A stretch of DNA of 64,000 bases, taken from assembly GCF_023667495.1 (NCBI RefSeq), contig NZ_JAMOZL010000011.1:186001-250000 (forward strand), in the 5' to 3' direction. The position numbers and the translations under genes are program-made. The notes beneath the pieces are model-generated. The model ran no database searches. It was not told the DNA's origin and saw only the letters and a list, made by a program, of their open reading frames with translations. The DNA is from Dyadobacter sp. MSC1_007 (GTDB lineage: Bacteria; Bacteroidota; Bacteroidia; Cytophagales; Spirosomataceae). The stretch's first letter is position 1; every line of letters begins with the position of its first letter. This document shows, one piece after another, positions 16,408-21,439 of the stretch.

Positions 16408-17328
16408 ATGGCATCGCGTGATGTGGCGGTCAAGGACCTGCATGAGTTGTATGAAAAAATGGGACTTCCACTGAGTCCTGTCGATGCTTCATCTGGCTTT
16501 ACGGTCCATTTTCTTCAGGATACATTTAAAGAATTTCCTTTTACCTCTGTCCCGTTCCGTCCCAACTATTTCAGTTTCCTCTTTATCCGCGAAGCATACG
16601 GGAAATACACCATCGACGACCAGGCCTTTGAAGTGCAGCCGGGAACGGTCTATTTCACCAATCCGGGTAATTATCGCATATTCGAATGGCATGCCATCCA
16701 GGATACTTGCCTCATCACGTTTAATGAAGCTTATCTCAAAGAAAATGTACATGAGGATGTGTACCGCGACTTTTCTTTCCTACTTACTGAAACGGTCCAT
16801 CCGCGGGTGCTGACGCAGGAACAGTTTACGGTAGTCAGACAATTGTATGAGCTCATACACCGCGAATACCTGGGTGATTCACCGTACAGGAACAAGCTTA
16901 TTGGCGGCCTGATGGTCGCACTGCTACTGAAAGTAAAAGAGTATTTCTTTCAGGACTATAACCCAATTTATGAAGGCAACAGAAGTTCTCAGATCGTCAA
17001 AATCTTTAAAAGGCACCTGGAACAACATTTCAGGGACCTTGTCAACGGTAAAGCGCAAATGCCTTTAAGGGTACAAGATTATGCCGATATGCAGGCATTG
17101 CATGTGAACTATCTTTCGAGCGTGATCAGCAGCAAAACAGGGAAATCGATCAGTGCCTGGATTGCCGATAAAACCGTCACTGAGGCCAAAGTAATGCTGC
17201 AAAACCCTGAATTGAGCATCAAAGAGATCGCCATAAGGCTTGGCTTCCTGGAATCGCCGCATTTCAGCAATTATTTCAAAAAACACGCAGGCACGAGTCC
17301 GGCCGACTACCGGAAACTGCAAGTTTAA
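16408..17328 (+). CDS. AraC-family transcriptional regulator
   Basis: A 306-residue protein with a cupin-like N-terminal half (FLFIREAYGKYTIDDQAFEVQPGTVYF) and a C-terminal AraC HTH pair at about residues 205-305 (VQDYADMQALHVNYLSSVIS, IKEIAIRLGFLESPHFSNYFKKHAG). It lies 106 bases upstream of an SDR gene on the same strand; adjacent AraC/SDR pairs are common in Bacteroidota, and the SDR is its most obvious candidate target. The inducer is unknown. Confidence 0.9.
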   Translation: MASRDVAVKDLHELYEKMGLPLSPVDASSGFTVHFLQDTFKEFPFTSVPFRPNYFSFLFIREAYGKYTIDDQAFEVQPGTVYFTNPGNYRIFEWHAIQDTCLITFNEAYLKENVHEDVYRDFSFLLTETVHPRVLTQEQFTVVRQLYELIHREYLGDSPYRNKLIGGLMVALLLKVKEYFFQDYNPIYEGNRSSQIVKIFKRHLEQHFRDLVNGKAQMPLRVQDYADMQALHVNYLSSVISSKTGKSISAWIADKTVTEAKVMLQNPELSIKEIAIRLGFLESPHFSNYFKKHAGTSPADYRKLQV

Positions 17329-17434: not shown

Positions 17435-18175
17435 ATGAACACGTTAAAAAACAAAGTCGCATTGGTAACCGGAGCCTCCCGCGGCATAGGGGCGGCAGTG
17501 GCCAAACAACTTGCCGGACAAGGCGCGCGGGTGATCGTAAACTACGCAGGAAGCCAACAGGAAGCAGAAGAAACAGTGAAGGCCATCCAAAATGCCGGTG
17601 GCGAAGCGATAGCTTTGCGTGCAGATGTCAGCAAAGCAGAGGAAGTAGAAGCGATGTTTGATGCAGCCATTGCACAGTACGGAAAAATCGACGTGCTGGT
17701 CAACAATGCGGGTATCATGATCACCAAGCTTTTGAAAGACACAACCGACGAGGATTTCACCCGCCAGTTCGACATCAATGTCCGCGGAACGTTTAACACC
17801 TTGCGTGAGGCGGCCACAAAACTCGCCGACGGAGGCAGTATTATCAACTTTTCATCCACAACGACGCGCGTCATGATGCCCACGTATAGTACATACGTGG
17901 CTACGAAAGGCGCTGTCGAGCAGCTGACACGTGTATTTGCCAAAGAAATCGGCCACAGGGGCATTAATGTCAATGCGGTCCTTCCCGGCCCTACCAACAC
18001 TGAACTTTTTACCAAAGGGAAACCGCAGGAAGTCATCGACCGGTTGGCTTCGCTAAGCGCGTTCAACCGCCTCGGAGAACCACAAGACATCGCCACCGTC
18101 GTAGCATTTCTAGCCAGCGACGATGCCAAATGGATCAGCGGGCAGACCATCGGCCTGAATGGCGCAATGGCCTGA
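17435..18175 (+). CDS. SDR-family oxidoreductase
   Basis: A 246-residue classical short-chain dehydrogenase. The cofactor motif TGASRGIG covers residues 12-19, NNAG 90-93, and the catalytic set is Ser140, Tyr154 and Lys158 (YVATK). Length and motifs match the FabG/glucose-1-dehydrogenase-like group, which reduces ketones or oxidises alcohols with NAD(P)(H). The acidic or basic residue after the first strand does not settle the cofactor. The substrate is unknown. It follows an AraC gene and faces the ankyrin gene with a 3-base gap between stop codons. Confidence 0.9.
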   Translation: MNTLKNKVALVTGASRGIGAAVAKQLAGQGARVIVNYAGSQQEAEETVKAIQNAGGEAIALRADVSKAEEVEAMFDAAIAQYGKIDVLVNNAGIMITKLLKDTTDEDFTRQFDINVRGTFNTLREAATKLADGGSIINFSSTTTRVMMPTYSTYVATKGAVEQLTRVFAKEIGHRGINVNAVLPGPTNTELFTKGKPQEVIDRLASLSAFNRLGEPQDIATVVAFLASDDAKWISGQTIGLNGAMA

Positions 18176-18178
18176 TTG

Positions 18179-19735
18179 TTAATGGTGTGCTCCCTTTTGC
18201 AGCAGCCATTCGACCATTTCCTTTTTTTCGCTTCGCGCAGCCCAACCCAATGGTGTGGATAAGGAGTCATATTCAATGGCATTGATATTGGCGCCGGAAT
18301 CGAGATAGATGGCAGCCATTTCCATGTCTCCTTCCGCTGCTGCCCGGTGTAGTGGTGTTACGCCGAGCCAGTCGCCGGTGTTTGGGTCGAGGCCGTTTGC
18401 GATCAGCCATTTGGCGAGTTCCGGATCATGTAAGGACCGGATTGCGAAACCTTTGAGAACTTCCGGTTGGTATTGCATGATCAGCTCCACTACAGGCTTA
18501 TGATCCAGGATCACCCGATGTTCGTCGTCGTTGAATGGCAGTTGAGGGTTGGCGAGCAGCATTTGGGACAGTGTCGCTATGTCGCCTTCATAACAAATCA
18601 GCTCGACTGTAAGCCTGCCGCCGTAAGCAATGATCAAATCCGTAATTTCTTTGGGCATTCCAACCACATTGGCGATCGACAGGCAGTTGCCCGACGATTC
18701 CACGAATGCATTCGGATCGGCGCCATTGCGGAGCAGTAATTTGACAATATCACCCTGTCTTTTACTGATTGCCGTGTGCAGGGCGGTGCCCCTTGTGCCA
18801 ATGCCCGGTTCCGGCTGGTTAGGATCGGCTCCGCGTTCAAGCAGGAGTTTGACAATTTCATAAAAGCCGCCCGAAGCAGCATTTCGCAGGGGCGTTCCTG
18901 AGTAAGCACCCGAATATTTTGGCATCTTCTTCACGAGCGCGGGATCGCTGTCGAGCAGCTGCCTAACCCCGGCATAATCACCTACTTTGGATGCGATACT
19001 CAAATCATAATCGGCTCCGCGTGCTTTGAGATAACCTACCACCACCTCATGTTTCTGAAGGCCGGTTGGAGGCAGATCACGGTACCAGTTGCGATAATAA
19101 TAATCCCCATTTGTCAGGTCGATCGGCCTTGCCCCATCCGCCCTTGGGTCATTGATATCAACCCCCAATTCCAGCAGGTATGCAATGAGATCGAGCTGCC
19201 GGGTCAACACGGCCCAATGAACCGGCTTGCTTCCGCGCGCGTCGGCAACGTCGATAAGCTCGGGGTTGTGCGATAAAAGCGCCTTTACACCTGCTATGTC
19301 AAATGACCGGATAAGTGCCGGTAATTTCTCCCCATCCGGAGCGATACGGTACAATTCCCAAAGTTTTGATTCCAGGAAAACGGCAAGGTCTTCATGGCCG
19401 CGATCCCTGGCAAGGCTTACCAATGGTTGGCAAAAATGGACTAACGGGCTCACCCCTTTATCTAAAAAGTATTTTACCAGACCAGCATGGTTCTCCCTCA
19501 CGGCAAACCAGATGGGTGTGAGATATTCGTACGAGCAGTTGAGCAGCTCGGGATTTTTAGCGACGAGTTCATCGATTACCCCTAAATCGCCTGAAATGGA
19601 AGCACACAACATCGCCCAGATATCCGCACCGGCAGCATTGTGCCACGATACTATCTCCGGGCCCTGAAGACGGGCTGGTTGTTTCATACCGGCAAGTTTG
19701 GACTGTAACCGGCTTGTCTGCTCAGATGATGCCAT
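18179..19735 (-). CDS. Ankyrin-repeat protein
   Basis: A 518-residue protein consisting of about ten to twelve ankyrin repeats, many close to consensus: GSKPVHWAVLTRQLDLIAYLLELG, SGTPLRNAASGGFYEIVKLLLERGADPN and VTPLHRAAAEGDMEMAAIYLDSGANIN (each given here in part of one repeat). No signal peptide or enzymatic domain is seen, so it is probably a cytoplasmic protein-binding scaffold. It is divergent from the ChrB-AraC gene, with only 57 bases between the two start codons, so a shared control region is likely. Confidence 0.88.
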   Translation of the reverse strand: MASSEQTSRLQSKLAGMKQPARLQGPEIVSWHNAAGADIWAMLCASISGDLGVIDELVAKNPELLNCSYEYLTPIWFAVRENHAGLVKYFLDKGVSPLVHFCQPLVSLARDRGHEDLAVFLESKLWELYRIAPDGEKLPALIRSFDIAGVKALLSHNPELIDVADARGSKPVHWAVLTRQLDLIAYLLELGVDINDPRADGARPIDLTNGDYYYRNWYRDLPPTGLQKHEVVVGYLKARGADYDLSIASKVGDYAGVRQLLDSDPALVKKMPKYSGAYSGTPLRNAASGGFYEIVKLLLERGADPNQPEPGIGTRGTALHTAISKRQGDIVKLLLRNGADPNAFVESSGNCLSIANVVGMPKEITDLIIAYGGRLTVELICYEGDIATLSQMLLANPQLPFNDDEHRVILDHKPVVELIMQYQPEVLKGFAIRSLHDPELAKWLIANGLDPNTGDWLGVTPLHRAAAEGDMEMAAIYLDSGANINAIEYDSLSTPLGWAARSEKKEMVEWLLQKGAHH

Positions 19736-19792: not shown

Positions 19793-20689
19793 ATGATTGC
19801 TGCCAGCAAGGATATTTCAGCATTAATTAATGAAATTTGCCGGATGAAATGGATTACCCGCGAACGCCCCAAAATAGACAGAATAGCTTGCCCCTGGCTT
19901 ATCAAACGCTTCATTGACGCCGAAGCTGAGATTATCTACGTCCCCGACAGCCAGGTTTTGCCCATGGCCGAGGAAATAGGTGCGACTCCGTTCGACGTGC
20001 CGGGAACAGAATTCTCGCATTACGAAGACAAATGCACATTTGACTATTTTCTCGAAAAATACGCCCTGGATGACCCTGCATTGAATGACATGGCGATCAT
20101 TATCCGCGGGGCTGATACCGATAACCATTCACTGGCAAGCCAGTCGGCCGGGCTTTGGGCCATATCAGCTGGCCTCGCCCACAATATCACTAATGATCAG
20201 GAACTGCTGCAACAGGGAATGCTGATCTACGACGCTCTTTATAGCTGGGCAAAGCATTTACAAAAACAGAAACACACACAAAGTCCTACCGAAAAACTGT
20301 TGTTGCAAGTTTTCAACGCCTATCTAGACGAAAAAACAACCCGCCGCCCGAGGACGCCGAAATGGGCCAAAGAATTAAAGGGCATTATCCAGGACCAGAT
20401 CGACACGAATCTCAGTCTCAGCCTTAAAGAGATCGCCGAGGAGCTGCAAGTCAACCCTACTTATGTGTCGCGTGAGTTCTCGAAGTATTTCAGTAATCTC
20501 TCGTTTGGTGAATACATCCGCAAGCTCCGGATAGAGAAAGCAATCGATCTCCTTTCCAATCCTGAACATAGCCTGTCGGAGATCGCATATCTGACCGGCT
20601 TTTCGGATCAAAGCCATTTCAACAGGATTTTCAAGGCGCATACCGGCCAAAACCCGTCTGACTACCGCAAAAACCTGATTAAAAAGTAA
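19793..20689 (+). CDS. Fusion of chromate-resistance ChrB domain and AraC DNA-binding domain
   Basis: A 298-residue protein. Residues 18-150 match the ChrB C-terminal domain (KWITRERPKIDRIACPWLI, then FDVPGTEFSHYEDKCTFD and IIRGADTDNH). Residues 195-295 are an AraC-type double HTH (LKEIAEELQVNPTYVSREF, LSEIAYLTGFSDQSHFNRIFKAH). ChrB proteins regulate or aid chromate efflux by ChrA in other bacteria. Here the domain has been coupled to a different DNA-binding module, so a chromate- or oxyanion-responsive activator is the inference. No chrA gene lies in the window. A start at 19844 (MKWITRERP) would fit stand-alone ChrB domains better than the upstream ATG. DUF2490 follows 12 bases downstream. 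Confidence 0.85.
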   Translation: MIAASKDISALINEICRMKWITRERPKIDRIACPWLIKRFIDAEAEIIYVPDSQVLPMAEEIGATPFDVPGTEFSHYEDKCTFDYFLEKYALDDPALNDMAIIIRGADTDNHSLASQSAGLWAISAGLAHNITNDQELLQQGMLIYDALYSWAKHLQKQKHTQSPTEKLLLQVFNAYLDEKTTRRPRTPKWAKELKGIIQDQIDTNLSLSLKEIAEELQVNPTYVSREFSKYFSNLSFGEYIRKLRIEKAIDLLSNPEHSLSEIAYLTGFSDQSHFNRIFKAHTGQNPSDYRKNLIKK

Positions 20690-20701
20690 CGATTTACAAT
20701 T

Positions 20702-21439
20702 TTGATGAAAAAGCACGCCCTCCTGCTGCTCCTGGTTAATTTTACACTCCCATCATTCGGCCAAAAACAGATCGACAAATACAAAGGTGTATGGTCGGGC
20801 TATATGGCCCAGGCCAGGCTTTCCGATAAATGGGGCCTGTGGTTCGACCTCCATGCGAGGCATGTTGACTTTCTGGACCGCTGGTCCACGCAAATTATAA
20901 GGCCCGGCATTATCTACTATCCAAACGAAAACCTGCGCGTCATGGCTGGCTACACCTATGCCCGCAACTTTCCGGCCCCCGGGCTCCGAACCGTACGACC
21001 AGAGAACCGTATATGGCAACAGGTGATCTGGACAACACGTCAGAAGAGACTGCAAACGCAGCAGGGGATCAGGATTGAAGAGCGCTTTAACCGAAAAGTC
21101 GCCAATGATCAATTGCAGGATGGTTACCATTTTGCTTTCCGGTTCCGATATCAGATCACTTTGAGAGTCCCGTTGAACCGCGACTTTATCGAAGCTAATA
21201 CTGTATTTCTTGCATTGAGTGAAGAAATACTCGTCAATGCGGGAAAGCAGATTACCTACAACGTTTTTGACCAAAACAGGCTGTTTGCAGGGCTCGGTTA
21301 TCAGTTCACCGAGAATCTCGGAGTACAGGCCGGCTACATGAATCAATTTCAGCAGTTGTCCTCAGGCAACCGTTTCAACAGCAACAATGTGCTGCGGGTT
21401 TCTATATTCCATACTCCCGACTTCCGGAATAAGGAGTAG
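20702..21439 (+). CDS. DUF2490 outer-membrane-type protein
   Basis: A 245-residue protein with a signal peptide (cleavage near residue 20, SFGQ) and alternating-hydrophobicity strands ending with the family pattern GLGYQFTENLGVQAGYMNQFQ. DUF2490 proteins are predicted small outer-membrane beta-barrels, usually annotated only by domain. It starts 12 bases after the ChrB-AraC gene and is very likely co-transcribed with it, tying the regulator to an envelope function. Confidence 0.88.
   Translation: MMKKHALLLLLVNFTLPSFGQKQIDKYKGVWSGYMAQARLSDKWGLWFDLHARHVDFLDRWSTQIIRPGIIYYPNENLRVMAGYTYARNFPAPGLRTVRPENRIWQQVIWTTRQKRLQTQQGIRIEERFNRKVANDQLQDGYHFAFRFRYQITLRVPLNRDFIEANTVFLALSEEILVNAGKQITYNVFDQNRLFAGLGYQFTENLGVQAGYMNQFQQLSSGNRFNSNNVLRVSIFHTPDFRNKE

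Follow-up and report, generated by a model that had tools for sequence, protein, structure and literature searches.

The window is the whole 64,000-nucleotide stretch of the Dyadobacter sp. MSC1_007 genome that was analysed. An uninterrupted open reading frame (ORF) of 298 amino acids occupies positions 19793–20689 on the + strand. Relatives mostly start at the residue corresponding to Met18, the preceding 17 ORF residues being unconserved, and the true fusion gene is probably 19844–20689, encoding 281 amino acids. The features of the locus are as follows.

19844–20689, + strand: fusion gene (281 amino acids), ChrF-type ChrB_C domain joined to an AraC helix–turn–helix (HTH) domain; start at Met18 likely, with a longer ORF from 19793.
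19850–20248, + strand: ChrB_C domain (PF09828), ORF residues 20–152, from a Pfam search.
19859–20020, + strand: stretch with R6, R13 and H59 (281-residue numbering), aligned to R180, R187 and H229 of Ochrobactrum tritici ChrB; numbering transferred through the spacing in pMOL28 ChrB1.
20432–20671, + strand: AraC-type DNA-binding domain (HTH_18), ORF residues 214–293, from a Pfam search and an AlphaFold2 model.
20606–20620, + strand: codons for DQSHF in the second HTH, a motif common to AraC genes with a like DNA site.
20690–20704, no strand: gap, the place of the operator and promoter in relatives; only TACAA (20695–20699) resembles box 1, maybe by chance.
20705–21439, + strand: DUF2490 gene (PF10677, E = 4.2e-51), predicted outer-membrane protein, adjoining the fusion gene without the conserved site.

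The assignment of the adjoining gene to DUF2490 in the preliminary description is borne out by the PF10677 match. The spacing of 12 bases given for it is correct when counted from a TTG codon; the likelier ATG at 20705 gives 15 bases. The divergent ankyrin gene (18179–19735), offered there as context, was rejected as a partner: it is not a conserved neighbour, its cluster occurring in the window only. Two genes upstream, an ordinary AraC regulator (16408–17328) is followed by an SDR gene (17435–18175), with no link to the fusion seen.

PF09828 (ChrB_C) matched ORF residues 20–152 (profile positions 1–131 of 132, E = 1.8e-50, 171.2 bits against a cut-off of 25) and PF12833 (HTH_18) matched residues 214–293 (E = 4.9e-23, 81.7 bits against a cut-off of 33.6); PF00165 (HTH_AraC) also matched (E = 5.4e-14). 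These matches agree with the earlier placing of residues 18–150 in the ChrB family, and with the proposal that a ChrB_C-type domain occupies the sensor position of an AraC regulator; as proposed, the protein is probably a regulator. In an AlphaFold2 model calculated from an alignment of 41 fusions, the sensor (residues 1–139) was confident, with ten-residue means of 81–98, the linker (about 143–170) was weak and the HTH domain (211–280) lay at about 72–90. The two-HTH DNA-binding domain, seen in the HTH_18 match, the model and the Foldseek results, places the protein in the AraC/XylS family. It resembles the activators MarA, SoxS and YesN in this domain and in its AraC-type fold matches, and differs from AraC/XylS activators in having a ChrF-type domain instead of the cupin AraC_binding domain. 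PDB relatives of the sensor domain were sought and none was retained: sequence relatives in the PDB covered the HTH half only, and within the best 50 Foldseek matches listed for the model those with E < 0.1 were all AraC-type proteins.

By sequence comparison the sensor belongs with standalone ChrF and is not, as first described, the C-terminal domain of a classical ChrB. Identity was 58% (over 138 amino acids) to the ChrF of pMOL28 and 56% to a Pedobacter plasmid ChrF, against only 33% to the C-terminal part of Cupriavidus metallidurans pMOL28 ChrB1. A tree of 35 rows grouped the sensor with ChrF, split from the ChrB C-terminal domains at 100/97; this tree did not separate one origin of the fusion from several. 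The ChrF of chr operons is a ChrB_C protein that stands alone, with no DNA-binding domain, whereas the fusion has one. To ChrB of O. tritici TnOtChr and C. metallidurans pMOL28 the fusion is related through the ChrB_C family, through probable regulation of a chrA operon and through kept equivalents of R180, R187 and H229. Classical ChrB, however, has an N-terminal DNA-binding half (with R18 and R23) before ChrB_C; the fusion protein begins at ChrB_C and carries its AraC domain C-terminally instead. ChrB is reported to repress its own promoter in the absence of chromate, whereas the fusion appears, from the position of its candidate site, to be placed like an activator.

Among the 41 aligned fusions, R6 and H59 were invariant and R13 was conserved in at least 90%. 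The three align with residues of pMOL28 ChrB1 that are spaced as the O. tritici numbers R180, R187 and H229 require, and on this alignment, which used pMOL28 ChrB1 and not the O. tritici sequence, all three ChrB induction residues are kept. PMC3817168 reports that R180A, R187A and H229A in O. tritici ChrB abolish chromate induction and links R18 and R23, which lie in its other half, to DNA binding.

The fusion is real and recurrent across Bacteroidota. Its domain order recurred in many other genomes, which excludes an assembly error and shows the arrangement to be a common one. ChrB_C was found in 56 of 150 Spirosomataceae genomes (14 of 36 genera), mostly as open frames as long as a fusion and otherwise as fragments or as two short standalone copies (G032:C11 and G023:C273), and in 18 of 395 Bacteroidota genomes; one locus in those 18 genomes (L119) is by sequence not this fusion, matching at 36% over the sensor only. 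A scan of named genomes gave at least 80 loci matching the query nearly end to end; 79 of those listed were titled Bacteroidota, and the genera among the matches listed included Dyadobacter, Larkinella, Spirosoma, Hymenobacter, Chitinophaga, Mucilaginibacter, Pedobacter and Flavobacterium. From the listed 80 loci, 15 were labelled Spirosomataceae by genus name and the other 65 were used as the outside set. This set retains L195, a 67% identical fusion on a 3.1 kb contig of a metagenome-assembled genome titled Thermoanaerobaculia, where a binning error is probable. Six plasmid records covered at least 80% of the query, and two of them were seen to carry the fusion at full length: pA27BH1 of Pedobacter sp. 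ANT_H27B, where a Tn3-family transposase is its neighbour, and a plasmid of Spirosoma oryzicola. No ChrB–AraC fusion appeared among the open PMC articles listed by literature searches.

A conserved candidate site, TACAAAAGGTnA-N5-GTTCTAT, followed after a further 20 bp by TAnnnTTG, was found just 3' of most fusion genes. It often spans the fusion stop codon (TACAAAAGGTTAA), the last codons reading D-T-K-G-stop. MarA-type sites have two boxes; here the boxes TACAAAAGGT and GTTCTAT are the predicted regulator contacts, and the asymmetric two-box site is conserved where an AraC/XylS site would be expected near a promoter. TAnnnTTG is a Bacteroidota-like -7 box, resembling the Bacteroidota promoter element TAnnTTTG given in PMC10309648. 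The site was considered as an RNA element and rejected, no consensus pairing being found.

The site matrix was trained on 44 of 57 scored Spirosomataceae loci, and a site was called present at a score of 13 or more. Leave-one-out scores of the 44 sites were 19.9–54.2 (median 41.3), against top scores of 2.1–12.9 in 20 random 64 kb sequences. Seven of the 13 loci outside training scored 20.1–35.2 anyway; the other six (L037, L042, L047, L055, L086 and the window) scored below 1 in the training register, L086 reaching 17.6 in another register. The loci examined numbered 59, namely the window and 58 retrieved stretches. Exclusion of L084, L087, L088 and L089, none of them near full length, and retention of L083 despite a broken frame gave 55 near-full-length Spirosomataceae loci; the site was present at 50 by leave-one-out scoring and absent at L037, L042, L047, L055 and the window. 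Out of the family it was present at 56 of the 65 named loci and missing at nine, compared with 0 of 69 loci in upstream control stretches (highest score 9.6; Fisher P = 1.3e-28). A smaller phylum set had it at 12 of 16 fusion genes, the misses being L106, L107, L121/L124 and L122. Genome-wide, at E ≤ 2e-4, it occurred in 43 of 56 Spirosomataceae genomes with ChrB_C against two of 94 without (G010 and G149; Fisher P = 1.9e-23). This comparison was tallied by hand and is in part circular, the model having been built from fusion loci; the circularity does not touch the out-of-family count or the unlinked copies described below. At the looser limit of E ≤ 1, matches appeared in 145 of 150 genomes, as expected for a short motif. 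Two further observations concern altered loci. At L102 and L103, HTH-only fusion remnants lie directly before DUF1259 and the site still scores 26.3. In a Dyadobacter-type genome (L087 = G032:C11), a standalone ChrF of 148 amino acids lies between DUF1259 and chrA, besides a fusion gene, with a site upstream (E = 4.9e-5).

The gene next to the fusion was seldom unrelated (59 loci). The recurring same-strand genes were chrA (PF02417, E = 8.4e-81), DUF1259 (PF07485, E = 2e-76), DUF2490 and OMPc1, a label given here to a small protein without a Pfam match. An AlphaFold2 model of OMPc1 was a β-barrel (pLDDT 90.0) that matched OmpA-, OmpX- and Ail-type barrels and designed transmembrane barrels. 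At the 55 Spirosomataceae loci, chrA (above 50% identity) was present at 28, OMPc1 at 30 and DUF2490 at 18, and at least one of chrA, DUF1259, OMPc1 and DUF2490 at 53. The 65 outside loci, six of which have less than 3 kb of downstream sequence, gave chrA at 44 (39 above 50% identity), OMPc1 at 22, DUF1259 at 17 and DUF2490 at three, with at least one of the four at 56. The two barrel types were together at none of the 55 loci and none of the 80 loci listed, a pattern that may follow lineage, as the counts ignore kinship. On pMOL28, chrB, chrA, a superoxide dismutase (SOD) gene, chrE, a ChrB_C protein gene and a DUF1259 gene lie within one stretch; chrL is LppY/LpqO-like.

At about half of the Spirosomataceae loci chrA is not within reach, and G020 and G060 possess the fusion, the site and OMPc1 with no CHR-family match anywhere in the genome; chromate efflux is therefore not the whole purpose of the system. 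An outer-membrane barrel follows the fusion at 48 of the 55 Spirosomataceae loci. The envelope target suggested in the preliminary description fits this recurrence, the barrel appearing as the core target; in this genome, however, the adjoining DUF2490 gene has lost the site and a second DUF2490 gene, on contig C2, has one.

In the window genome the fusion gene was the sole ChrB_C match in a profile search. No site was present in the gap 20690–20704, the best score anywhere in the window being 4.0; the TACAA at 20695 may be a remnant of one. In a whole-genome ranking the best sites were C2:625502 (E = 9.8e-7) and C5:392098 (E = 3.4e-5), the third having E = 1.8e-3. The C5 site precedes an operon of a rhodanese gene (nearest to ChrE at 93.6 bits, below the cut-off of 120), DUF1259 and chrA, its ChrA sharing 88% identity with the ChrA encoded in the operon of a relative. 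The C2 site precedes the second DUF2490 gene, whose product is 86% identical to that of the same relative. The statement that the window lacks chrA is accurate, no PF02417 match being present on the contig, but incomplete: three such genes lie elsewhere in the genome, and the C5 chrA, on another contig behind a like site, corresponds to a regulon member in many relatives (28 of 55 and 44 of 65). At the two remaining CHR-family genes (32% and 26%) the site is absent, the scores being 1.6 and -0.1. Linkage to chrA or a site in common with it, as for a chr operon regulator, was thus found among the relatives, and in the window genome through the C5 site only.

Unlinked sites were also found in relatives, before chrA (G104 and G100), chrA–DUF2490 (G087), DUF2490 (G058) and OMPc1 (G004 and G010); G010 has no ChrB_C match in a genome that is 88% complete. 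One strong site in G069 lies in front of transposase-like genes. In D. psychrophilus DSM 22270, too, the fusion is not linked to the chrA–DUF2490 operon. At L096 and L137, AAAAGGTAAA stands just upstream of both unlinked sites and resembles the 3' end of the fusion gene, as if left by a former fusion copy. Since the local site and chrA are missing and the site survives at two unlinked places, the regulon has most likely come apart in the window genome, with one regulator controlling the C5 and C2 genes in trans.

The domains, their distribution, the conserved site, its position before chr-type genes and its unlinked copies are established at the sequence level, and from them we infer binding, activation, the signal and the roles of the barrels. 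The reading that we prefer, with a probability of about 0.7, is that of a one-component regulator in which a ChrF-type chromate sensor is joined to an AraC activator of the conserved site, acting here in trans on C5 and C2. The N-terminal domain would sense chromate or a direct consequence of chromate, and the C-terminal domain would bind the asymmetric site and activate transcription. Because the second box lies where a -33 element would be, 20 bp before the -7 box, class II activation is probable. In most relatives the site over or after the fusion's own stop codon would drive the next genes, namely a barrel (OMPc1 or DUF2490) and often chrA, DUF1259 or SOD; in the window genome, which has lost both site and chrA next to the fusion gene, its targets would be the C5 chrE-like/DUF1259/chrA operon and the C2 DUF2490 gene. 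The loci where the site is missing (five of 55, the window included, and nine of 65) count against this reading, as do the Spirosomataceae loci with no chrA nearby and the absence of any CHR-family match in G020 and G060.

The main rival to a chromate signal is a redox or manganese signal: the sensor would answer oxidative stress, superoxide or Mn by ChrF/SOD-like chemistry, chromate acting only through damage. The grouping of the sensor with standalone ChrF, apart from the ChrB C-terminal domains, suits this account, as do SOD genes within 6 kb downstream at 14 of the 65 outside loci. PMC4779226 reports O. tritici ChrF as a dimeric cytoplasmic protein that contains 1.0 mol Mn per mol and is active as an SOD, and the primer printed there begins with the MKWITRE start also found in the fusion sensor, so that the domain may sense redox state or Mn; the SOD claim, however, comes from this single paper. 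Retention of the ChrB residues for chromate induction argues the other way, as does chrA, which belongs to a family of chromate-specific pumps and is the named partner seen most often outside the Spirosomataceae. We consider a redox or Mn signal unlikely, and the chromate-responsive activator is retained as the preferred reading.

Slightly less likely still is that the window copy is a relict or has a private role, making a bicistronic message with DUF2490 only, with control of C5 and C2 lost. The adjoining site is gone, and both window genes have diverged beyond their relatives and could be drifting to another role: dN of the fusion was 0.118–0.129 against six genus relatives, five of which gave 0.028–0.066 against L034, and that of the window DUF2490 was 0.18–0.225 against 12 loci, compared with 0.064–0.109 for the C2 DUF2490 against 11. 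dS with the genus relatives was saturated, so no dN/dS ratio was obtained; saturation of synonymous differences at a pN of only about 0.11 is itself a point against a relict. The ORF is moreover whole, the DNA-binding motif is intact, and the two strong genome sites would otherwise be without a known regulator, the genome having one ChrB_C match. Control in trans by a functional regulator accordingly remains the favoured account of the window copy.

A like site, with another target directly behind it, stands at the stop codon of the closest AraC relatives that lack ChrB_C, several of which have a cupin-like N-terminus. The site therefore marks a DNA-binding subfamily and not chromate as such; this also weighs against the preferred reading. 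Nine such Spirosomataceae loci (L142–L146 and L151–L154) encode an AraC protein with another N-terminus, followed within about 110 bp of the stop-codon site by a secreted-looking gene of about 400–570 amino acids. Their HTH domains are 34–50% identical to that of the fusion, and they differ from it in the sensor (with a weak PF02311 match at L143) and in the targets (at L143 a β-lactamase-family protein, PF00144). DQSHFxRxF was read from the C-termini in the second HTH of 12 of 12 AraC genes with the site and of the fusion, but the 12 had been chosen by the site, so this is no test. Among 18 non-fusion HTH matches, two reached a score of 13 (L089 and L103), both pieces of broken fusions; after removal of these and a third piece (L103), 15 unrelated AraC/HTH genes, at loci not chosen by the site, had neither the site nor the full motif (one had DQSHFIK), and the site as a generic AraC feature was rejected. 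That the site belongs to another AraC regulator and is carried at the 3' end of the fusion by co-inheritance, as the further AraC genes with a like site might suggest, is improbable in view of these 15 genes, of the partly circular association of site and ChrB_C across genomes and of the unlinked copies before chr-type genes.

A sensor swap onto a regulator already carrying a 3' operator would be the simplest account of the origin of the fusion regulator. It is possible, though we propose it only tentatively, that the whole forms a Bacteroidota-wide cassette in which a ChrF-type domain has been grafted onto an AraC subfamily with a 3' operator, the barrel, in either of two interchangeable types, and not chrA being the core target. 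Sensor swapping and target capture would then move together, and outer-membrane passage or closure would stand at the front of an oxyanion or redox response.

In Proteobacteria, chromate regulation by ChrB has been elucidated. If the preferred reading is correct, Bacteroidota, which are common in soil, in water and at metal-polluted sites, rely instead on a one-component chromate regulator of the AraC type, the regulon of which can be read from genomes through its defined operator, and an outer-membrane barrel can be named as a consistent partner of chromate defence. The overlapping regulator and operator would be reusable with a new sensor, and the function of the ChrF domain, as enzyme or sensor, becomes separable and testable. 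On the sequences analysed, this is a widespread putative regulator with a readable candidate operator, and the copy in the window is a rearranged one. At L138, L150 and L156, weaker sites (mainly GTTCTATTTT and the -7 box) lie by another AraC type, before NAD-binding-like or VOC-like genes, and perhaps reflect a wider AraC code in Bacteroidota.
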